Source: an uncultured Coriobacteriia bacterium (GTDB lineage: Bacteria > Actinomycetota > Coriobacteriia > Coriobacteriales > Eggerthellaceae). Taken from it: DNA of 32,765 nucleotides. Made by a program: the position numbers and the translations under genes. The stretch spans positions 1 to 32,765 of the forward strand of contig CASEJD010000119.1 in assembly GCA_949288145.1 (NCBI GenBank), given 5' to 3'. The notes beneath the pieces were generated by a model. That model made no database searches. It was not told where the DNA came from and saw nothing but the letters and a program-made list of their open reading frames with translations. Shown one piece after another: positions 2,789-25,872 of this stretch. Position 1 is the stretch's first letter; each line of letters opens with the position of its first letter.

Positions 2789-3589
2789 CTAGAACAGGCT
2801 CTCCTGAACCTGCGTCCAGGCAGTGCAGAACGTGGCGCGGTGCAACGGGCTGAGCCCGTGCTCTTTAATCGCGGCGATGTGATCGGCGGACGCGTAGCCT
2901 TTGTTCTGGTCGAACCCGTACGCCGGGTACTCCTGTGCCCACGCGGTCATGAGCGCGTCGCGCTCGACCTTCGCCACAATGGACGCCGCAGCGATGGACG
3001 CACACGTGGCGTCGCCCTTCACCACGTTGACCTCGCGCGGGTCCATGTGCAGCGGATTGCCGTCGAGCAGCACCGTGCACACCTGGACACCCTGCGCCTC
3101 GACGTCCGCAACGGCGCGGGCGAACGCCGCGCGCAGGCATCGCGCCATGCCGAGCTCGTCGATCTGGGCAGGCGGCACATGCTCCACAGCCCACGCGAGC
3201 GCCGTCTCCTTGACAACCGCGGCGATCTCCTCGCGGTGCGCGGGCGAGACCTGCTTCGAGTCGTTCAATCCCGCGATGCGCGGCTCCGCCGGAAGCACGA
3301 CCGCCCCAACCGTAAGCGGTCCGGCGACGGGTCCACGGCCCACTTCGTCAAGGCCAACGACCGCCTGCACGCCGCCCCACTGCTCTTCGATCTCGTAGAG
3401 CGACGCGATGCGCTCCTCCTCGGCACGCTCGGCCTCCAATCGACGACGCGCTACCTCAACCGCCTGCCGCACGCCCTTGCGCGGGTCGGCAGCGAGCGCT
3501 CGCTCGAGCGCACGGAACTCCTCTTCGTCGGCCCGAGAGAGACGCGCCTTGATGTCAGCTACCGTGGTGGGAACGCCGGGGGTGCTCAT
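2789..3589 (-). CDS. rnhB: Ribonuclease HII
   Basis: The 266-residue enzyme cleaves the RNA strand of RNA-DNA hybrids and starts removal of single ribonucleotides misincorporated into DNA. The catalytic acidic residues are in view: Asp81 and Glu82 in GLDEVGRGPVAG, Asp176 in VLLDGNPL and Asp193 in VKGDATCASIAAASIVAKV. The GRG loop and the C-terminal GYASADHIAAI are also typical. The first 70 residues form a helical extension like that of Firmicutes-type RNase HII. A longer frame upstream is an overlap artefact. The true ATG overlaps the stop of the preceding TPR gene as ATGA, which implies translational coupling. It ends 39 nt from the convergent ygbA. Confidence 0.95.
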   Translation of the reverse strand: MSTPGVPTTVADIKARLSRADEEEFRALERALAADPRKGVRQAVEVARRRLEAERAEEERIASLYEIEEQWGGVQAVVGLDEVGRGPVAGPLTVGAVVLPAEPRIAGLNDSKQVSPAHREEIAAVVKETALAWAVEHVPPAQIDELGMARCLRAAFARAVADVEAQGVQVCTVLLDGNPLHMDPREVNVVKGDATCASIAAASIVAKVERDALMTAWAQEYPAYGFDQNKGYASADHIAAIKEHGLSPLHRATFCTAWTQVQESLF

Positions 3590-6321
3590 GACAGGATGCT
3601 CCGTTCCGTCCGCGTGAGCGACTCGAGCACCGGGTAGAGCGCGTCGTCGCGCACGGTGCGCAGCGCGCTGGAAAGCAGCGTCGCCGCGAGCGAGAGGCTG
3701 CCGTTGTCCGCCACGATGCGCGCCGCGTCGAGCAAACGCTGCGCGTTTCGCTCGATGCTGGAGAGCGAGAAGCCCGCGCGCTCCACGGCAGCGGCGCTGT
3801 CCTCCAAGCCCAGGTAGCGCTGGCGCGGGCTTTCGCGCAGCAGCTCGTCGAGCTCGCGCACGGCGATCTCGCGCAGCGAGGGATCGTACTTCATGCACTG
3901 CAGGTAGCATGCCGCACCCGTTGCCGGATCGCCGGTACGCCACAGCGCGAAGGCAAGCCAGTACAGCGCCAAGCCCACGTCCGTCGGGTTCCACGCGATG
4001 TCGAACATACGGCGCAGCGCGTCGATCTCAGAGGCGTAGTCGCCCGCCAGGAAGTACGTGCGCGCGATCGCCAGGTAGCCGGCGGCCGTGGTCGGAGCGA
4101 GCTCGATGCACTTGAGCGCGTGCTCGAGCGCGACCTCGTGTTCTTCGAACGAGCCGTGCAACAGCGTCGCGATGCCATGGTGCGCCGCGAACAGCTCGTC
4201 GGGCAGCGGGCGGACCGGACGCGCGTCCTCGTCCTCGAAGGCGAAGAGCGCGCGGGCGGCGTAGCTGTCGAAATAACGCCAACGGACATGGGACGTGTCA
4301 GAGAACGACCCGTCTGCCTCGGCGAGCAGCACGATCTGCTCGAGCGTCTCGCGCGCTGCGGCAGGGTCCTGCTCTGCCTGCGCCGTGGCACGCACGCGCA
4401 GGGCGCGCAGCCCCCACGCGTCGGAGAACAAGTCAGCGAGCGTACGTCGCGGGTCCTCGCCCAGCGTACCCTCGGACACCGCCATCTCGGCCTTCGTGCA
4501 CACGGTGCGAACGGTCAGGTCCTCCGTGCGATCGTGCAGGTCCTTCAGCACGCGCAGCGCGCCGTCGCGTCCTTCGGCCTCGTAAGCGTCCGCCACCTGC
4601 TCGGAAAGCTTCACGCGCTCGCCGCCCTCGGAGATGGACAGGTCCTCCACACGCGCCACGTTGCGCAGCTCGCCAGCGTGGACGGTGACGGGGCGCTCGT
4701 CGATCTCGGGCGAGGCATAACGCTCGGGAGGGCACAGCTCGTCGCCCTCCAGGTCGCGCGCGGCGGCAATGGGAAGCAGGCGGCCGTCGTCGCTTGCGAG
4801 CGTGCGCAGGCCGCACGCGACGAAGACGTCGTCGACCGGCGTGCCGCCTTGCTCGAGCGCGATGAACAGCTCGCGCGAGACGACGCCCGAAACGACGCGC
4901 TCGCGCGCCGGGGTGTCCCGCACGATGTCGATCGACACCGTGTCGACCGCGGGGTCGCAGGCGAAGGCCGCAGCGAGCATCAGGCGCGCGACCGAGCGCG
5001 CGTAACCCGCCTGGTCGGAGAAAAGTTCGCGTTCGGGGCGCTCGACCCACGATTCGGAGCCCGCTTCCCACGCAAGCGGCATCATGTGCTCGCTCACCGG
5101 GCACGTCGCCTCGACGCCCATGGTCCTCGCGTCATGGTTAATGCGCAGGCGGTACGAAAGGCGGTAGGGCATGCGGAAGCGCTCGCACGCATGGCAGAAC
5201 CGCAGGCGCGCGTCCCACTCGCTCTCGGCGGAGGCGCCCTCTCCCTCGAACACGCCGCTCTCGGCGTCCACAACCGGCGCTTGGCGCGTCAGATTGGCGA
5301 GGATGCGGCGCTCGGTGCGCTCGCACTCCTGCTCGGAAGCGGTAGAAAGCGCGCCGCGCGCGGTCAAATCCTCCACCATGAGCCAGAATCGATTCAGCAC
5401 CGACTCAAGGCATAGCAGCGCGCTGCGGCCCGCCGGAGCCACGGCATCCTGGTCAAAGCCCAGGTAGAATGCGTTCGCATACGAGCGGGTGCGCGCCAGC
5501 CGGACGTCGACCGCCCCTGGCACGGCAGGGCTCTGCTCGCCGCCGGGCACCCGGCGCGGCAGCTCGAGCGGATCGAGCTCGTCGAGCTTGAACGCGCGCA
5601 GTTGGCGCACGAGGTAGCGCACAGGCGCGGAAGGGGCCTGGAGCGGGTTCGCCTCGACCGCGTCCTCGGCGGCGCAGATGCGCCGAACCGCCGTGAACAC
5701 GTCGTCGGAGGAAAGCGCCTCGAAGACCTCGCCCGGGCCGAAGGGCGCAAGCGGCATGCCCTGCTCTTCAGGGAACACGCAGGCTGCCAGGTACAGGCGC
5801 GCGAACAGCTCGTCGTAGCCCAGGCCTTGCAGGCCATCCCCCATGCGCACGAGCATGTTCTCGAGCGCATAGCGCTTGCCCTGCTGGCGGAACTCGCCGA
5901 TACGATGCTCGGACCCGTCGTCCTGGAAGACGGTGACGCAGCCGGTCCCGTCGGAGCGGTCTTCGTACACGGACAGCGTGAGCGCCGGAGTGTACGCGGG
6001 CGGCATGCGCAGGGCGTCGAAGGCGCGGAACGCCCTCCCGAACGAGTCGACGTAGCCGAGCACGCGCGCTCGTGAGCCCTCAAGGAACTCCACGACATAG
6101 CACGAGCCCTCCGCGGGCATCTGCACGCCACTCGAAACGTAGCCAAACGAACGCCCTTCCGGCGTGCCTGGCATGGGAGCTACCTGCGCGCGCTTCGCGA
6201 ACGGCGAGATGCGGAACGTCGCATACTCCGACGTTTCCGGATCGCCTTCGTCGATCATGCGCGAAATACCGGACGCGACTGCGCCCGCGATCTCATTGAT
6301 TGCCTCTGCTGGTGTGCTCAT
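3586..6321 (-). CDS. Large TPR-containing protein of unknown function
   Basis: This is a 911-residue soluble protein with no signal peptide or membrane segment. Residues 711-830 form about three tetratricopeptide-like helical repeats, for example YLAIARTYFLAGDYASEIDALRRM and LYWLAFALWRTGDPATGAACY (quoted in parts). The N-terminal two thirds has no domain I recognise. A middle section contains RLRFCHACERFR and a CPVSEHMMPL segment. Its role is unknown, and TPRs suggest protein partners. The start has an AGAGGACGG binding site. Its stop overlaps the rnhB start, so expression of the two is linked. It probably belongs to a conserved coriobacterial family, but I could not test this. Confidence 0.85.
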   Translation of the reverse strand: MSTPAEAINEIAGAVASGISRMIDEGDPETSEYATFRISPFAKRAQVAPMPGTPEGRSFGYVSSGVQMPAEGSCYVVEFLEGSRARVLGYVDSFGRAFRAFDALRMPPAYTPALTLSVYEDRSDGTGCVTVFQDDGSEHRIGEFRQQGKRYALENMLVRMGDGLQGLGYDELFARLYLAACVFPEEQGMPLAPFGPGEVFEALSSDDVFTAVRRICAAEDAVEANPLQAPSAPVRYLVRQLRAFKLDELDPLELPRRVPGGEQSPAVPGAVDVRLARTRSYANAFYLGFDQDAVAPAGRSALLCLESVLNRFWLMVEDLTARGALSTASEQECERTERRILANLTRQAPVVDAESGVFEGEGASAESEWDARLRFCHACERFRMPYRLSYRLRINHDARTMGVEATCPVSEHMMPLAWEAGSESWVERPERELFSDQAGYARSVARLMLAAAFACDPAVDTVSIDIVRDTPARERVVSGVVSRELFIALEQGGTPVDDVFVACGLRTLASDDGRLLPIAAARDLEGDELCPPERYASPEIDERPVTVHAGELRNVARVEDLSISEGGERVKLSEQVADAYEAEGRDGALRVLKDLHDRTEDLTVRTVCTKAEMAVSEGTLGEDPRRTLADLFSDAWGLRALRVRATAQAEQDPAAARETLEQIVLLAEADGSFSDTSHVRWRYFDSYAARALFAFEDEDARPVRPLPDELFAAHHGIATLLHGSFEEHEVALEHALKCIELAPTTAAGYLAIARTYFLAGDYASEIDALRRMFDIAWNPTDVGLALYWLAFALWRTGDPATGAACYLQCMKYDPSLREIAVRELDELLRESPRQRYLGLEDSAAAVERAGFSLSSIERNAQRLLDAARIVADNGSLSLAATLLSSALRTVRDDALYPVLESLTRTERSILS

Positions 6322-6397
6322 GCCCGTCCTCTGTGTTCGGTGTTTCCGGCAATTCTCTCACACATTGACGCGGCGTGCCCGCATTTCGGGGATGGCG

Positions 6398-6403
6398 TAC
6401 AAT
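6398..6403 (+). promoter_or_regulatory. Possible -10 element for trmFO-xerC
   Basis: TACAAT fits a sigma-70 -10 box well and lies 85 nt before the trmFO start, within the 167-nt divergent gap. A TTGACG at 6365-6370 is 27 nt upstream, too far for a standard -35, so the promoter is only tentative. Confidence 0.3.
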
Positions 6404-6488
6404 GTGCGCCGAAATCAAGGCGATCGAAACAGCCCGGTGCGCGCCGTCTCGGAACTTCCTAACGGCGCGGTTGAGAAAGCGAGGGGGC

Positions 6489-11782: not shown

Positions 11783-13864
11783 ATGAGACTTCGCATGATA
11801 CGCGAGGTGCCCGGACGGCTGCGGCTGGCGCTTGACGGTAGGGTGCCCGAATCGGACGTGGACGCGCTCGAGCGAGCCGCCATGCAAAGCGCCTACGTGA
11901 GGAAGGCGACAGTCTACCCGCGCATTGGCGAGCTCGCGGTGTCCTACCAGCCTGTCCAGAGCGCCCGGGAGAAGGTGATCGCCCATCTCTGCTCGATCGA
12001 CCAGGAGCAGATCGCCCGCGAGCGGACGGCATGCTCGATTGCGATCGCGCCGCGAACCAACCGCATGCTCATGGACCTGGCAGTGCTCGTGGGAGCGGCC
12101 ATAGCTCGACGCATGCTCCTTCCCAAGCCCCTCGCGCTCGTGGCAGCCCTATGGCGCTTCCGCCATTTCTTGGCCGCTGGCATGCGCTCGCTCGCCAAGG
12201 GGCGCCTGGACGTGCCCGTGCTCGACATGTCTGCGATCGCGCTCTCGTTCGCACGGCGAGACCCGCGCACCGCCAGCCAGACCATGCTCTTGCTCAACGT
12301 GGGAGAAACGTTAGAAGACTACACGCGAGCGCGCTCGGAGAACGAGCTCATCGGTTCCCTACTCGACCTTCCCGAGACCGCGCAGAAGGTCGTAGGGCCA
12401 GAGGAGATCACCGTGCACGCGAGCGAGCTCGAGCCCGGTGACGTCATAGCCGTCCGAACAGGCATGCCCGTGTGCGCAGACGGCGTCGTCATCGAGGGCA
12501 CGGCCATGGTCAACCAGGCCACGCTCACTGGCGAGCCCCTTGCCGTCGAGCGCACGGTCGGTGACGACGTCTTCGCCGGCACCGCGGTGGAGCAGGGCCA
12601 AGCGCTCGTGCGCGTCAAAGCGGGCGCCGAGGGCACCAAGCTCCGGTCCATCGTGAGCCTTGTGGAGGCGTCTGAGGGCATGAAGTCCCAGGCCGAACAG
12701 CGCATGGCGCGTCTGGCGGACAAAGTGGTTCCCTGGAACTTCCTGCTCGCCGGCATCGTCGCGCTCACGACCCGCAGCCTGACGAAAACGGCCTCGACCC
12801 TCATGGTCGACTACTCGTGCGCCCTTAAGCTCACTGGTTCGATCGCCGCTCTCACGGCCATGAGCCAAAGCGCGAAGCTCGGTTTCACGGTGAAAGGCTC
12901 GAAGCACTTCGAGGCGGTCGCTCAGGCAGACACGATTGTCTTCGACAAAACGGGCACCCTTACCGCAGCGACGCCCGAGGTGGCGTGCGTTCTGCCGCTC
13001 GACGGATGGAGCGAGGACGAGGTGCTCCGGCTCTCAGCGTGCCTGGAAGAGCACTTCCCCCACCCCGTCGCACGCGCTGTTGTGAACGCAGCTGCCAATC
13101 GCGGCCTGTGTCATCGCGAGCGCCATGCTGCGGTCGAGTACATCGTCGCGCACGGCATCGCCTCTTCGCTTGACGGCCAGCGCGTCGTCATCGGCTCGGA
13201 GCATTTCGTGGTCGAGGACGAAGGCGTGTCCATTTCCACGCGCGATCAGGCGGCCATTAACGAGGCCATGGAGGGCCTTTCCCCCTTGTACCTGGCTGTC
13301 GACGGCGTCCTTCGCGGCGTCATCGGCGTGCATGACCCCCTGAAAGACGGCGTGGCCGAGGCGATCGCGGACCTGCGGCGCGAGGGCATACGGCGCATTG
13401 TCATGCTCACGGGCGACAACGAGCGCACCGCCTCCCGCACCGCCCGGTTGGCGGGCGTCACGGAATATCGCTCGGAAATGCTGCCGAGCGACAAGCACGA
13501 CTACGTGCGGCAGCTTAAGGCCGAAGGCGCGCGCGTCATCATGGTCGGTGACGGCGTGAACGACTCGCCCGCGCTCTCGCTCGCTGACGTGGGCATCGCC
13601 ATGGGCTCCGGCACCGCCATCGCCAAGGAAGTGGCGGACATCACCATGACGAGCACGAACCTGAACGCGCTCGTGCAATTGCGGCGCCTAAGCTGCGAGC
13701 TCATGGCCAGGATGGACCGCTCCTTCGCGAAGGTGCTCGGGTTCAACTCGCTGCTGCTGGCAGGCGGCATCGCGGGCGTCCTCCAACCGCAGACATCGTC
13801 GTTGCTGCACAACGCCTCGACGATCGCCTTCAGCAGCTCGAATGCGCGGTCGTACCGGGTATAG
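11783..13864 (+). CDS. P1B-type heavy-metal translocating ATPase with non-canonical SC motif
   Basis: This is a 693-residue cation pump. The N-terminal 75 residues form an HMA-like fold without a CxxC metal site. The actuator domain carries LTGEP (TGE loop, about residue 249). The transmembrane metal motif is DYSCALKL at 343-350, where most P1B pumps have CPC or CPH. Phosphorylation site DKTGTLTA is at 388, and HP (SERCA-like locus) is in EEHFPHPVARAV. The hinge is TGDNERTA and GDGVNDSPAL is at 589. The last helices include LLHNASTIAF. The substrate is therefore not the usual Cu, Zn or Cd by motif; Mn or Fe export is one possibility. No clear ribosome binding site precedes the ATG, so translation may depend on coupling with DUF6110. 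Confidence 0.92.
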   Translation: MRLRMIREVPGRLRLALDGRVPESDVDALERAAMQSAYVRKATVYPRIGELAVSYQPVQSAREKVIAHLCSIDQEQIARERTACSIAIAPRTNRMLMDLAVLVGAAIARRMLLPKPLALVAALWRFRHFLAAGMRSLAKGRLDVPVLDMSAIALSFARRDPRTASQTMLLLNVGETLEDYTRARSENELIGSLLDLPETAQKVVGPEEITVHASELEPGDVIAVRTGMPVCADGVVIEGTAMVNQATLTGEPLAVERTVGDDVFAGTAVEQGQALVRVKAGAEGTKLRSIVSLVEASEGMKSQAEQRMARLADKVVPWNFLLAGIVALTTRSLTKTASTLMVDYSCALKLTGSIAALTAMSQSAKLGFTVKGSKHFEAVAQADTIVFDKTGTLTAATPEVACVLPLDGWSEDEVLRLSACLEEHFPHPVARAVVNAAANRGLCHRERHAAVEYIVAHGIASSLDGQRVVIGSEHFVVEDEGVSISTRDQAAINEAMEGLSPLYLAVDGVLRGVIGVHDPLKDGVAEAIADLRREGIRRIVMLTGDNERTASRTARLAGVTEYRSEMLPSDKHDYVRQLKAEGARVIMVGDGVNDSPALSLADVGIAMGSGTAIAKEVADITMTSTNLNALVQLRRLSCELMARMDRSFAKVLGFNSLLLAGGIAGVLQPQTSSLLHNASTIAFSSSNARSYRV

Positions 13865-13950: not shown

Positions 13951-13992
13951 AAGTTACCTTAAGTTGCCTTTTCAGAAAAGTTTGATTATGCT
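13951..13992 (+). promoter_or_regulatory. Promoter and tandem operator-like repeat of the AraC-type regulator gene
   Basis: AAGTTaCCTT (13951-13960) is repeated directly as AAGTTgCCTT (13961-13970). The second copy contains the -35 box TTGCCT (13964-13969). A -10 box TATGCT lies 17 nt on (13987-13992). Tandem 10-nt sites overlapping a -35 are typical of AraC-family binding, so autoregulation is plausible. Confidence 0.55.
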
Positions 13993-14029
13993 GACTCTAA
14001 GAGCGGACATCGTTCACAAGGAGGTATGG

Positions 14030-15046
14030 ATGCAGGCCAGCACACGCACCGCCGCACAAGACCCCTCTGCCACCGAAACAGGGCCGAAGAGCGAGTCCCC
14101 GATCGAACGGTTGCTCCGCACGGGCGGATGCGGCCTGCGCAGCGAGCACACCCTGGCCACGAGCACGCGCCCGGGACGCGCTTGGCGCGTCGACCCGAGC
14201 GTCGGAAACGGCGTGCTCTGGCATTTCCCCATCACTGACGATATGGCAGTGACGTGCTGCCGCATCACACTTGCCCGCCGCATGGAGGGAGCGTTCCTGG
14301 CCCCCGAGCACTACTGCGTCGGGCTGTACCGGCATCTCCCCTTGGACGACGGCTCAAGAGGAGCCGCTCGCGAGGTCGTCCTCGGACATGCGTGGAAAGG
14401 CCAGGCGTTCATCACCATGCCCAGCCCCGGCGAAACGCTCGAGGCAACCTGCATCGTGCTCACTGCGCGAGCGCTGCAGGTCATGAGCCTCCGCTGCCAA
14501 TGCGACCCGCTCGTCCTCTCCAACGCCATAGCCTTGCTCGACGGCTCGAAGGAAACCCCCGGCATTCGCGAGGTGTTCGAGGACATCACGTCAGCTCGAC
14601 CTTCACCGATCGTGGCGCGTGCATTCTACGAGAGCAAAGCGACCGAGGCCATGTCGCTCATCGTAGACTGGAGCCTTTCGAGCAAAACGACGTGCACAGC
14701 CCCCATGAAGGCGGCGGACCGCACCGCGCTGAACCGGGCCCGGCGCTACATGGCAGAGAACCTCGACCGCACCGTGTCGACCGAAGAGCTGTGCGCGGTC
14801 GCGTGCATGAGCGCGAGCAAGCTTGCTGGGCTGTTCAAAGAGGCCGAGCACACAACGCCCCAAGAGTACGCCCGCACCCTGCGCATGGAGCGGGCGCGCG
14901 CATTGCTGGCACAGACCGACCTGCCATTGTCCGCAGTGTCCCAGCTCGTCGGCTTCCAACGTCAAGGGAGCTTTTCGGAAGCGTTCAAAGCCCGCTACAA
15001 CGTCACGCCCCGCGAATACCGCGCGCTCGCTCGAGCGAAGTCCTGA
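14030..15046 (+). CDS. AraC family transcriptional regulator
   Basis: This is a 338-residue regulator. The C-terminal 95 residues hold the two helix-turn-helix motifs of the AraC/XylS DNA-binding domain: LDRTVSTEELCAVACMSAS, then LAGLFKEAEHTTPQEYARTLR, LPLSAVSQLVGFQRQGSFSE and AFKARYNVTPREYR. The N-terminal 230 residues probably bind a ligand, but I recognise no specific sensor family. I chose the ATG next to AAGGAGGT. The frame is open 22 codons further up through the promoter, without a binding site. It is convergent with the LuxR-type gene, 8 nt apart. Its target is not apparent; the nearby transport and redox genes have their own promoters. Confidence 0.88.
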   Translation: MQASTRTAAQDPSATETGPKSESPIERLLRTGGCGLRSEHTLATSTRPGRAWRVDPSVGNGVLWHFPITDDMAVTCCRITLARRMEGAFLAPEHYCVGLYRHLPLDDGSRGAAREVVLGHAWKGQAFITMPSPGETLEATCIVLTARALQVMSLRCQCDPLVLSNAIALLDGSKETPGIREVFEDITSARPSPIVARAFYESKATEAMSLIVDWSLSSKTTCTAPMKAADRTALNRARRYMAENLDRTVSTEELCAVACMSASKLAGLFKEAEHTTPQEYARTLRMERARALLAQTDLPLSAVSQLVGFQRQGSFSEAFKARYNVTPREYRALARAKS

Positions 15047-21788: not shown

Positions 21789-24700
21789 CTATCGGCGGCT
21801 GACGTCCGCCAGGTCGAAGTCGTTGTCGTCGTCGAGGATGGCCTGCGACGCTTCCTTCTGCTCTTCGTTGAAGCGGTCGGCTGCGCGCTGTTCCATGACC
21901 GTCGCCTTTTGGAACACCCTCGGCTCGTGCACGACCACCTGCGGGTACGGAATGTTGATGCCGTTGCGGTCGAAGATGAGCTTCATCTCGCGACGCAGGT
22001 CGCGCTCAAGCGGGCCACGGTCACTCTCGGCGCATTGCGCCACGATGCGGATGACCACGCTATTGTCAGCCAGCGAGACGACGCCACGGTAGAACGGGCC
22101 TTCCTCGATCGCGGTGAGGCGCTCGCGAATGTGCGGGAACTCTTTCTCGAGCAGGTTCTCGACGCGCTCGAGGGATTCGCCGTACTCGATCTGCATGTCG
22201 CAGGAAGCGAACGAGGACTCCTTGGTCATGTTGACGACGTTGCTCACCTCGCTGTTGCGGATGATGATGATGTTTCCGTTGCCGTCGTTAATCTTCGTCG
22301 TGCGAATGCCGATTTCCATGACGGTGCCGCTGCGCGTGCCAACGGCGATGATGTCGCCGACGCGGAACTCGCCCTCGAAGATGATGAACAAGCCGGACAG
22401 GATGTCCGCTACAAGCTCCTTCGCGCCGAAAGAGATGGCGATGGACAGGATGCCGGCAGAGGCGAGCAGCGTCGTCGTGTCGATGCCGATGACCATCAAG
22501 CAGTAGTACACCATACCGATGATGGAAGCATACTTGATGAAGCTGCTCACAAGGCGGCACATCGTCTCGCCGCGCGGGCCGAACACCGTCGCCAGCAGCC
22601 TGAGCAGCTGCTGCACGAGCATCGTGATCGTCAGGACGCAGCATGCAATCATGATGCACGCCGTGATGGCGAACACGTTCAGACCGCGCTCCCATCCGCC
22701 AGCGAGGATGTAGGAGAACACCGATTCGGACGTGAAGACCCGATCTTGGAACAGCATCGCCGCGCACACGACGATGGCGAAAATGCTCAGCAGCACCTTG
22801 ATGACGGTGAGGACGCGCTGCTCGGCGGATTTCTCGTCCCAGTGCATAGAGCGGTACAGCCAGCGGCTTGCGGCGGACTCAGTCTTCTCGGTTCGGCCGT
22901 CCGGCATCTCCACGTCGATCATGCGCGGATCGTCGTCGCTCTCGCCCTCGGCGTCCTTTCGGGCGACGCCGGCGATGGTGCGGCGGCGCTCGAACGTCAC
23001 GAGCAGGAAGATGACAATTTGGCACAGCAAGCCGGAGAACGCCGTCGTCAGCGTCAACGGCACGCGCTCGGTCATGAGTTCGGACTCAGGTTGGGCGACG
23101 TAGATGTAGTAATCGTCCGTCTCGAAGGAGCTCGCGTAGTACCGTTGACCGTCGATGGTCACGAAGTCGCTGAAGCCGTCCTTGAGCTGCGCCTCGGTCA
23201 TACCGCGCGCCGTGGCGTCCTTGCCCGCGAGGTCGCTGTTCGGATAGTAGGCGAACGTGTTGTCCGACTTGTTCACGGCGAAGGCGAATCCGTTCTGCCC
23301 CACCTGGATGCCGTCGAGAACGTTCTCGACGTTGACGGACGCAAGGAGGTTCTCGAGGCGCTCCGAGCGGACGCTGATCTGGACGAAGCCTTCTGCATCG
23401 CCGTCCTGGTTGTGCAGGACGACGCCAATGTACTGGCGCAGCTGGCCGGACACCTCGTCGGGCATGGGGTCCTGGATGTAGTACTCGACGCCCTGCAACA
23501 GCTGGCGGAACGGATAGCTTTGATCAGAGGGATCATCGGAGAGCGTGAAGTTCACGTACGGCGAGTTCGTCTCGGTCATCACGCCCGCGCCGTCGAATAT
23601 GAACAGGTACTGCACGTGCAGCGCGTCGGAAAGCTCTTGTAGCTTCGCCTCGTCGGCGCGCAGTTCCGGATTCGCGTCAAGCGCGTAGCCGGCGACCTGA
23701 GCCTTGCCAAGGTAGCGTTCGTTGTACTGCGCCGTGAGGTCCGATGCCTGCTCGCGCGCGCTCGTAATGGCGCGCTCGATGTCGGCAGCTCGGTCGTTGC
23801 TGCTCACAGACTCGGCGGACAGCGAGAACAACGTCTGCATGTAGAACGTCACGCCGAGCACCGCGAGGAAGCCCACGAACGACAGGACGATTGCCTTGCG
23901 CCCGATGGCCTTGTTGTAGCGCAGCGGGCCGACGTTCGTGTAGTTCTCCGGATTGTAGCCGCGCTTCTCGTCTTCGCGGTTCACGAAAATACCGTAGAGC
24001 GCCACGATCATGGCGACGGAGAAGAAGATGAACAGGATGACGCCGAGCGTCAGGTTGCGCGAGCCGACGAACTCGCTGAACGGGACGACGCCGAGGTAGT
24101 ACGTGCCGTCGACTTCGGCAACGCCGACGAACACGCGCTCGCCGTTGAAGTGCATCCATTTGTAGTTGCCGTCTTCGAGGTCGCCGACCTGAATGCCCGC
24201 GTCGAGCGCGTCAATGCCGACGCACGCCTCGTCCGGGTGGTAGGAAACCGTGTAGTCGCGTCCGGAGATGGCCATGACATAGCCGGTCTGCCCCACGCTC
24301 AGGTGGCGCAGCACGCTCTCGTGGGAGCCCGTGGTGTCGAGCAGCTCCTTGAGCTCGGCAGGGTCCTGTTCAATGACGACCATGGTGTTGTCGTCGATGC
24401 GCGCAGCGTAGTAGCGCATCGTCTGGCCGGACTCGGCGAAATCGACCTCCATGCCCTCGCTCGGCTCGCCCGTTTCGAACACGGAGCGAAGCTGGTTGTA
24501 GCGGGAGTAGGAGAACTCGGCCGGCGTGTCCTGCGCCTTGGCGACGACGTTGCCAGCGCGGTCCACGACAAGGACGTTGTCGACGCTCAGCAGGTCCTTG
24601 TACTCCTGCATCTTCGCGTCCGTAGCCTCGTAGCCCGTGTTGTTGTTCGCCAAGAACGCCACGCTCTCCGCCTTCGACGCGTAAATGTCGTCGTAGGTCT

Positions 24701-24896
24701 GCGTGTTCTGAGCGTTCTCTTCGTCGGCTGCCTGCAGCAGGGCGGGCAGCTCGCTCATCTCGGATTTGATGTCGACCGTGTAGTTCTCGACAGAAATGTC
24801 GTCCTGCAGCGCAGCGACGATGAAGCCCATCGCCACGACGCTTGCGACGACGAACAGCGCGAGCAGGGTCGCTTTTATCTTGAGTTTTCGAGACAT
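21789..24896 (-). CDS. MscS-type channel with two extracytoplasmic Cache-like sensor domains
   Basis: The protein has 1035 residues. TM1 (8-29) is followed by a large outside domain (30-278) with VGQTGYVMAIS and a YHP motif, features of Cache domains. TM2 (281-304), a short basic loop and TM3 (333-356) lead to a second outside domain (357-612) with VGQNGFAFAVN and YYPNSDL, a likely duplication of the first. TM4 (614-635) precedes a charged cytoplasmic linker. Three further helices (695-804) and the MscS pore helix follow, with ASAGILSIAISFGAKE. The beta domain (FRVGDIIAVG, IIIIRNSEVSN) and alpha/beta domain complete a channel to about residue 1000. MscS proteins open under membrane tension; here ligand sensing may modulate gating, which is inference. 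GGGAGGG supports the ATG. A solute-binding lipoprotein gene lies 14 nt upstream. Confidence 0.88.
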   Translation of the reverse strand: MSRKLKIKATLLALFVVASVVAMGFIVAALQDDISVENYTVDIKSEMSELPALLQAADEENAQNTQTYDDIYASKAESVAFLANNNTGYEATDAKMQEYKDLLSVDNVLVVDRAGNVVAKAQDTPAEFSYSRYNQLRSVFETGEPSEGMEVDFAESGQTMRYYAARIDDNTMVVIEQDPAELKELLDTTGSHESVLRHLSVGQTGYVMAISGRDYTVSYHPDEACVGIDALDAGIQVGDLEDGNYKWMHFNGERVFVGVAEVDGTYYLGVVPFSEFVGSRNLTLGVILFIFFSVAMIVALYGIFVNREDEKRGYNPENYTNVGPLRYNKAIGRKAIVLSFVGFLAVLGVTFYMQTLFSLSAESVSSNDRAADIERAITSAREQASDLTAQYNERYLGKAQVAGYALDANPELRADEAKLQELSDALHVQYLFIFDGAGVMTETNSPYVNFTLSDDPSDQSYPFRQLLQGVEYYIQDPMPDEVSGQLRQYIGVVLHNQDGDAEGFVQISVRSERLENLLASVNVENVLDGIQVGQNGFAFAVNKSDNTFAYYPNSDLAGKDATARGMTEAQLKDGFSDFVTIDGQRYYASSFETDDYYIYVAQPESELMTERVPLTLTTAFSGLLCQIVIFLLVTFERRRTIAGVARKDAEGESDDDPRMIDVEMPDGRTEKTESAASRWLYRSMHWDEKSAEQRVLTVIKVLLSIFAIVVCAAMLFQDRVFTSESVFSYILAGGWERGLNVFAITACIMIACCVLTITMLVQQLLRLLATVFGPRGETMCRLVSSFIKYASIIGMVYYCLMVIGIDTTTLLASAGILSIAISFGAKELVADILSGLFIIFEGEFRVGDIIAVGTRSGTVMEIGIRTTKINDGNGNIIIIRNSEVSNVVNMTKESSFASCDMQIEYGESLERVENLLEKEFPHIRERLTAIEEGPFYRGVVSLADNSVVIRIVAQCAESDRGPLERDLRREMKLIFDRNGINIPYPQVVVHEPRVFQKATVMEQRAADRFNEEQKEASQAILDDDNDFDLADVSRR

Positions 24897-24910
24897 GCAG
24901 TCAACCCTCC

Positions 24911-25729
24911 CTAGTTCCACTTGTCCGTGAGCGCGGCGATGGTGCCGTCGTCGATCATGCCTTGGACGGCCTCGGCAACGCGGCCGGAGAGCTCAGAGCC
25001 CTTCTGCGTGGCGATGCCGTACTGCTGCTCGGCGATGTTGTAGTCCAACAGCGTGCGCTCGTCGTTCATGAAGCCCTGGGCGATAGCGCCGTCCATGACG
25101 GCGGCGTCGACGGTTCCCTCTTCCAGCTCCTGCGAAAGCTCAGCGTAGGATGCGATCTTCTTGACGTAGACGCCTTCGTACTGGGTGCCCGCGTCGTCGT
25201 TGGAGATGATGTTGTCGCCGATGATGCCGTCGGCGTTGAGCTTGATGGCAAGAAGCGGACCGGCGTTCGACCCGGACATGATGCCGATCGTCTTGCCGCC
25301 TAACTGCGCCGGATCGGCGATCATCGAGCTGTTCTCCACCATGACGCGCGTGCCGTCCGTGTAGTACGCCGGCGAGAAGTCGAAGTTCTCGAGGCGAGAA
25401 TCGGCAATGGAATAGCACGCCACCAGACAATCGACCTCGCCGTTTAGGAGCCGCTCTTTGCGGTCGTCAGGCGTGACGGTGCTGAACTCGACGTCGGCGT
25501 AGCCCAAACGATTCGCCAGCTCTTCGGCGATGTCGACTTCCAGGCCGTAGTACTTGCCCGTTCTCTCGTTCAGATAACTGAAGTTCATGATGTCGTCGCG
25601 CACGCCGACGCGCAGCGTGCCCTGTCCTGAATCGGACAGCTGTGTCGAGCCGCACCCGACGAGGCACAGCACCATGGCGAGCACGAGCGCCGCCACGACG
25701 ACGAGCGCCGGCTTCCTGCCTTTCCCCAC
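24911..25729 (-). CDS. Amino-acid-type solute-binding lipoprotein
   Basis: The 272-residue protein starts at a GTG with GAGGAGGG five bases before it. An ATG 18 codons upstream lacks a site and would bury the signal peptide. The lipoprotein signal has a basic start (MGKGRKPA), a hydrophobic core and lipobox LVGC with Cys26. The mature part is a family 3 solute-binding fold: LRVGVRDD, YYGLEVDIAEELANRLGY, ACYSIADSRLENFDFSPAYY (with the Arg that usually holds the amino-acid carboxylate) and VDAAVMDGAIA. No permease or ATPase is present. It is in an operon with the Cache-MscS gene, so it may present a ligand to that protein. The ligand is unknown. Confidence 0.9.
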   Translation of the reverse strand: MGKGRKPALVVVAALVLAMVLCLVGCGSTQLSDSGQGTLRVGVRDDIMNFSYLNERTGKYYGLEVDIAEELANRLGYADVEFSTVTPDDRKERLLNGEVDCLVACYSIADSRLENFDFSPAYYTDGTRVMVENSSMIADPAQLGGKTIGIMSGSNAGPLLAIKLNADGIIGDNIISNDDAGTQYEGVYVKKIASYAELSQELEEGTVDAAVMDGAIAQGFMNDERTLLDYNIAEQQYGIATQKGSELSGRVAEAVQGMIDDGTIAALTDKWN

Positions 25730-25872
25730 GAAATCCCTCCTCGATTGTGATTGACGAAATGATTCGCGCACTGGAGAGTGCATACGGATTCAATAATGAC
25801 GCAGGATGGCTGGTTACGATAGTTTCAATAAAAAGATGAACGTTTCACCGTCAAGCAGGCAACGCTATTCTC

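Follow-up and report, generated by a model that had tools for sequence, protein, structure and literature searches.

The window, the whole stretch of 32,765 nucleotides from an uncultured Coriobacteriia bacterium that was analysed here, carries on its minus strand two adjacent genes that are best explained as a two-gene unit composed of a membrane-anchored, amino-acid-type binding protein and a MscS-family channel bearing two homologous external dCache sensors. Judging from sequence, we lean towards a ligand-controlled MscS-type channel that would sense through its dedicated binding protein and its Cache ectodomains, gating by this route being the conjectural part. The features of the locus are as follows.

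21789 to 24896, minus strand: whole channel gene P0001 (TM-dCache1-TM, TM-dCache2-TM, extra TM, MscS pore and beta domain), ATG start, 1035 aa.
23922 to 24896, minus strand: unit 1, residues 1-325 (TM, dCache ectodomain at about 30-278, TM), from a predicted model and fold comparison.
22932 to 23921, minus strand: unit 2, residues 326-655 (TM, dCache ectodomain at about 353-612, TM), from a Pfam dCache_1 match below cut-off and the full model.
21927 to 22679, minus strand: MscS core, residues 740-990 (the three final TM helices with the beta domain and C-terminal domain), from PF00924, PF21088 and 3udc.
24897 to 24910, minus strand: gap of 14 bases between the binding-protein and channel genes, which contains the channel gene's ribosome-binding site, GGAGGG.
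24911 to 25729, minus strand: family 3 solute-binding lipoprotein gene P0002, with GTG 25729 as the likelier start; SBP_bac_3 at 4.1e-26.

The pore helix and beta domain place the channel protein in the MscS superfamily by sequence, the core matching PF00924 at 3.7e-16 and PF21088 at 1.3e-6, both above the Pfam cut-offs. The C-terminal alpha/beta domain PF21082 scored 15 bits, the cut-off being 21, and the alignment with the nearest solved sequence, 3udc (E 5.1e-39, residues 777-996), spans this region. Positive charges lie beside the predicted cytoplasmic ends of the TM helices, a pattern consistent with sensors on the outside and a C-terminus in the cytoplasm. The AlphaFold model of the full-length monomer is of moderate quality (pLDDT 77, pTM 0.52). 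When plasmids were searched with the channel protein, 419 records matched and none of the 419 covered 80% of the query; in the five of these matches that were listed, it was the channel part that was covered.

The first-pass annotation had described two similar external domains, each bracketed by helices, within positions 22963-24812, a span that indeed corresponds to roughly residues 29-645. Its paired motifs were found where expected, VGQTGYVMAIS at residues 201-211 and VGQNGFAFAVN at 532-542, followed by the YHP and YYP elements at 219-221 and 550-552 respectively, and the predicted structure bears out the bracketing, with the succession helix, dCache, helix occurring twice. In the full AlphaFold model, unit 1 consists of a helix at residues 3-84, a dCache domain to 272 and a helix at 274-312, and unit 2 of a helix at 329-408, a dCache domain to 603 and a helix at 604-634. 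As modelled, both units have the make-up of a double Cache domain, a long N-terminal helix followed by two PAS-like subdomains. At the level of sequence families, dCache_1 (PF02743) detects unit 2 at 35.4 bits, below its curated cut-off of 45, and unit 1 had no match in the Pfam scan of the channel protein; the orthologue in genome G178 reaches 46.5 bits for the same family and thus exceeds the cut-off. Since the profiles of both units gave no usable match in a PDB sequence search, the dCache units were compared by fold. Modelled separately (pLDDT 85, pTM 0.61), unit 1 had its best match in PscC, whose tandem CACHE domain (6mni) aligned with it over 210 residues at Z 15.4 and rmsd 8.9; Mlp24 and PctA, both chemoreceptors for amino acids, matched with Z about 13. 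The full model matched the ectodomains of DctB, TlpQ and PctA with Z about 12-13.

Self-alignment of the two halves with the Smith-Waterman algorithm (residues 1-330 against 331-660) gave a score of 208, to be compared with a mean of 39, a standard deviation of 6 and a maximum of 71 in 1000 shuffles. This alignment is collinear from the first to the second transmembrane helix, and the ectodomains alone align with each other at 199, the maximum of 2000 shuffles being 74. Comparison of unit-1 and unit-2 profiles, built from 30 sequences each, yielded a probability of 99.9 and an E-value of 2.6e-33 over 287 columns at 25% identity, and the match takes in both flanking TM helices. Homology of the two halves across the whole TM-Cache-TM module is thus supported by sequence comparison.

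A single internal duplication, as had been proposed for the two modules, is the history that we favour and regard as likely. When 197 class genomes were searched, the unit-1 profile (E<=1e-6) recovered nothing beyond the two units of the channel family, and the unit-2 profile recovered a single other protein in addition to these. Two sets of receptor modules served for comparison with signalling receptors: set R, retrieved by searching with three aligned receptors of the class and drawn from GGDEF proteins and one hybrid histidine kinase, and set Q, five closer modules from Bacillota. The generic dCache_1 proteins L048 and L050-L074, of the same family, were rejected as a close comparison for being too distant, since their scores with the profiles of the units did not exceed about 14 bits, and served as a far outgroup only. 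In a first tree of 69 rows with a distant outgroup, each unit formed one clade and the two clades grouped with each other at 98/93. In a second tree of 63 rows, in which every long row was kept, the receptors formed one clade (99/96) and the channel-linked units branched in no resolved order among themselves. Removal of 16 long or redundant rows from this second tree gave a third, rooted tree of 47 rows, including Bacillota members, in which all 26 channel-linked units group together (86/95), with unit 2 of L230 at their base. A fourth, unrooted tree of 40 rows, obtained from the second by omitting the 6 outgroup rows and 17 others, split the channel-linked units from the receptor dCaches at 100/99; unit 2 is not one clade in this tree. 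The long row of L229 unit 2 was among those removed from the second tree.

We weighed these trees against the rather unlikely alternative that the Cache units have separate origins, unit 2 having come from the TM-dCache-TM module of a GGDEF or histidine-kinase receptor and unit 1 from a more distant Cache protein. This alternative draws on the hhalign scores of unit 2, whose profile scores 242.2 with unit 1 and no lower with receptor dCaches (243.6 for set R, 265.5 for set Q), and on AU tests in which the rooted arrangement uniting unit 2 with all receptors was not rejected (p 0.28 and 0.34). The profile of unit 1, however, is nearest to unit 2 by a wide margin (242, against 145 for Q and 151 for R), the unrooted tree keeps the channel-linked units apart from the receptors, and the grouping of unit 2 with set Q alone was rejected (p 0.015 and 0.046). 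The expectation that the two domains should be each other's nearest relatives is therefore borne out from one side, unit 1 being closest to unit 2 and the trees grouping the units, but not from the other, since unit 2 lies equally near the receptors. Likewise, the proposal of a duplication is strengthened by the module-wide homology and favoured by the trees, but it is tempered by the lack of reciprocity in profile similarity and by the rooted alternative that the AU test leaves standing. That remaining alternative, a root on the unit-1 stem, is what a faster unit 1 would explain, and under the favoured duplication unit 1 has most likely changed faster since the event. The further ideas of the first-pass annotation, a duplication before fusion to the channel and units that sense two ligands or work as a tandem clamp, are conjectural.

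The channel gene was found in 41 of 296 class genomes, as 38 full-length frames and three interrupted ones (G159, G259 and G279). The tandem Cache-MscS arrangement also occurs in Bacillota, at ten loci (one of them interrupted) in eight of 44 genomes, all with the MscS core, these 44 genomes being an uneven sample picked for holding receptor dCaches. Among the matches listed from a search of 299 Bacillota genomes with the full-length profile, all were stand-alone MscS proteins with open frames of 272-411. The order of the units is preserved in Bacillota, as seen in L229, whose first domain scores 125 bits with the unit-1 profile and 43 with the unit-2 profile, the second scoring 23 and 136 respectively. 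Most other Bacillota members have a second domain that is clearly a unit 2, preceded by a weak or shortened first domain. This shared domain order indicates that the two-sensor architecture either existed before these proteins split or spread by transfer, and the duplication itself most likely predates the split of the Coriobacteriia and Bacillota members. In three Bacillota members, L232, L234 and L236, the first sensor is apparently single-Cache-like and shortened and the second is complete. A further Bacillota locus, L231 (G341:C123), has an in-frame TAG in the middle of the tandem Cache-MscS gene (junction 2344/2345), which may reflect a broken gene, an assembly error or read-through.

The gene directly upstream of the channel gene encodes a protein of solute-binding family 3 according to its match with PF00497 (91.8 bits against a cut-off of 26.4, 4.1e-26). 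Its start is probably the GTG at 25729 behind a GGAGGG, which gives a normal lipoprotein signal peptide; the ORF finder had chosen the ATG at 25783, and P0002 is numbered from that ATG. In this numbering the lipobox cysteine is Cys44, conserved in 37 of 38 binding proteins, and Arg130 and Asp231 are present in all 38. The latter two align with residues of the solved amino-acid binders 4zv1 and 2v25, in which we take their counterparts to be amino-acid site residues.

Several observations tie this gene to the channel. It lies directly upstream of the channel gene in 36 of the 38 intact Coriobacteriia loci, with an intergenic gap of 8-62 nt in all 36 adjacent pairs, and the three interrupted channel loci have it as well. 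Strong orthologues of the binding protein (at least 163 bits) were detected in 39 of 292 class genomes and 38 of these 39 adjoin a channel gene; the next best match has 129 bits, and matches from there down behave as would be expected of paralogues. The remaining strong orthologue is a truncated copy in G224 (L274, G224:C8:1-12000, positions 5686-6414); the 12 kb read around it contain no channel gene, and it is apparently a remnant left after loss of the gene pair. In a comparison of nine neighbourhoods, no genes but the pair itself recurred in most of them; the other common frames were antisense to the pair, overlapped it or were present in two loci. Across 34 loci (L024 and L038 excluded), binding-protein distances correlated with those of both ectodomains (r 0.71 and 0.74) and less closely with those of the pore core (r 0.57); the partial correlation given the pore was 0.58 for each ectodomain, a value that none of 2000 permutations equalled. 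These correlations fit a functional pair, are compatible with docking or with shared inheritance and single out neither unit. Pairing of the channel with a dedicated binding protein is thus well supported by the comparative sequence data. The two divergent intact Coriobacteriia members, L037 and L039, have no binding-protein neighbour, and their upstream frames (336 and 727 aa) had no Pfam match. No binding-protein homologue was seen in the Bacillota loci read, so that, together with L037 and L039, these members indicate that the binding protein is not indispensable to the architecture. No shared substitute partner appeared among ten flanking genes from L037, L039, L229, L230, L232, L233, L234 and L238; the flanking genes of the partner-less loci encode an acetyltransferase, a redoxin or a peptidase, or have no Pfam match.

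The Cache units themselves lack the YxxxRxWY motif, which the accessible part of one study gives as that of amino-acid-binding dCache domains (dCache_1AA; PMC9901441). Among the 38 intact Coriobacteriia members it was found in none of the unit-1 and none of the unit-2 sequences, although unit 1 keeps an aromatic-xxx-Arg pattern (Phe128 in 36 of 38, with a Tyr in one more, and Arg132 in 36 of 38). Because the motif is absent from both units, direct binding of amino acids at the classical site is unlikely. By analogy, its absence would fit recognition through a binding protein, as in LuxP-LuxQ, and is also compatible with other ligands.

The position of the channel gene, almost always directly behind the binding-protein gene, suggests control by an external nutrient rather than by membrane tension alone. 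In the mechanism that we propose, the binding protein would capture a small ligand, probably resembling an amino acid, on the outer side of the membrane and, once loaded, might dock on a ring of Cache domains, of which there would be up to 14 if the channel is a heptamer. By moving, the stalk helices of the Cache domains could then pull on the TM bundle and shift the MscS gate, the ligand, perhaps together with tension, opening or closing the pore. The wider proposal of a class of ligand-gated channels, in which a lipoprotein delivers an amino-acid-like signal to a double Cache ring gating an MscS pore and of which the Bacillota members form a partner-free branch, is put forward tentatively, as a possibility somewhat short of probable.

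Two other functions were considered for the pair. The protein could be an ordinary mechanosensitive valve whose ectodomains anchor, cap or tune tension gating, the binding protein being a neighbour with a transport job of its own. Many MscS proteins, for example MscK and YbiO, have large N-terminal extensions without known ligand gating; both are among the sequence or fold matches of the channel protein, and the lack of a partner in two intact members from the class and in those Bacillota loci that were read is in keeping with such a valve. We nevertheless consider it unlikely, given that nearly all strong binding-protein orthologues adjoin the channel gene in varied surroundings and that no ABC transporter gene was present among the window genes scanned. 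Alternatively, binding protein and channel might form an efflux or uptake route for amino acids, with the substrate collected or released at a Cache-regulated pore. MscCG exports glutamate, the binding protein has ligand residues of the amino-acid type, and the nearest solved pore, 3udc (with 3t9n, which we take to be Thermoanaerobacter MscS), has been reported to be anion-selective. MscS pores, however, are broad and passive, and we find this route slightly more doubtful still than the ordinary valve. Ligand control of the pore through the binding protein and the Cache units keeps our preference.

Parts of this arrangement have known counterparts. The channel shares its pore and beta domain with the MscS of 3udc and 3t9n; beyond these it has an N-terminal extension of about 690 residues that carries the two external dCache units, and its TM helices number five more in total. 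With dCache_1 receptors (histidine kinases, GGDEF proteins and the chemoreceptors PscC, Mlp24 and PctA) it has in common the TM-dCache-TM sensor (fold Z 12-15) but differs from them in its ion-channel output, in having two units in series and in lacking the amino-acid motif in both. LuxQ, which works with the binding protein LuxP, likewise combines a solute-binding protein with a Cache-clan ectodomain, but LuxQ is a kinase, in contrast to the channel of this locus, whose binding protein belongs to amino-acid family 3. The LuxQ-periplasm family, assigned to the Cache clan in the available part of a survey (PMC4822843), was not among the Pfam matches of the channel protein up to E 1, a result that is compatible with a relationship all the same. 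The alpha2delta subunits of animal calcium channels, as far as described in the accessible part of PMC9901441, likewise bring two dCache_1 domains into a channel complex, but they are separate lipid-anchored subunits with a VWA domain and no MscS pore, and their first dCache carries YxxxRxWY, unlike either unit here. Ligand control of an MscS pore, as proposed here, has a parallel in bCNG. These are cyclic-nucleotide-gated MscS proteins whose sensor is cytosolic and C-terminal, and a sensor domain of this type had no Pfam match in the channel protein.

No description of a Cache-MscS architecture was found in the literature searched, which included few subscription papers, and the ion-channel outputs listed in the portion of the 2016 Cache survey available to us are calcium-channel subunits (PMC4822843). 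If correct, a Cache sensor inside a pore protein that works with a dedicated binding protein would constitute a bacterial receptor-channel whose gating is directly testable, an osmotic valve turned in Coriobacteriia into a channel gated by a nutrient or host metabolite. It would also provide a defined case of sensor duplication within a channel, and it offers a starting point for understanding the response of gut Coriobacteriia to amino acids. Elsewhere in the window, an open frame of 911 residues on the minus strand (3589-6321) has only a sub-threshold TPR match, and a P-type ATPase gene on the plus strand (11783-13861) is followed on the same strand by a gene for an AraC-type regulator (13964-15043).
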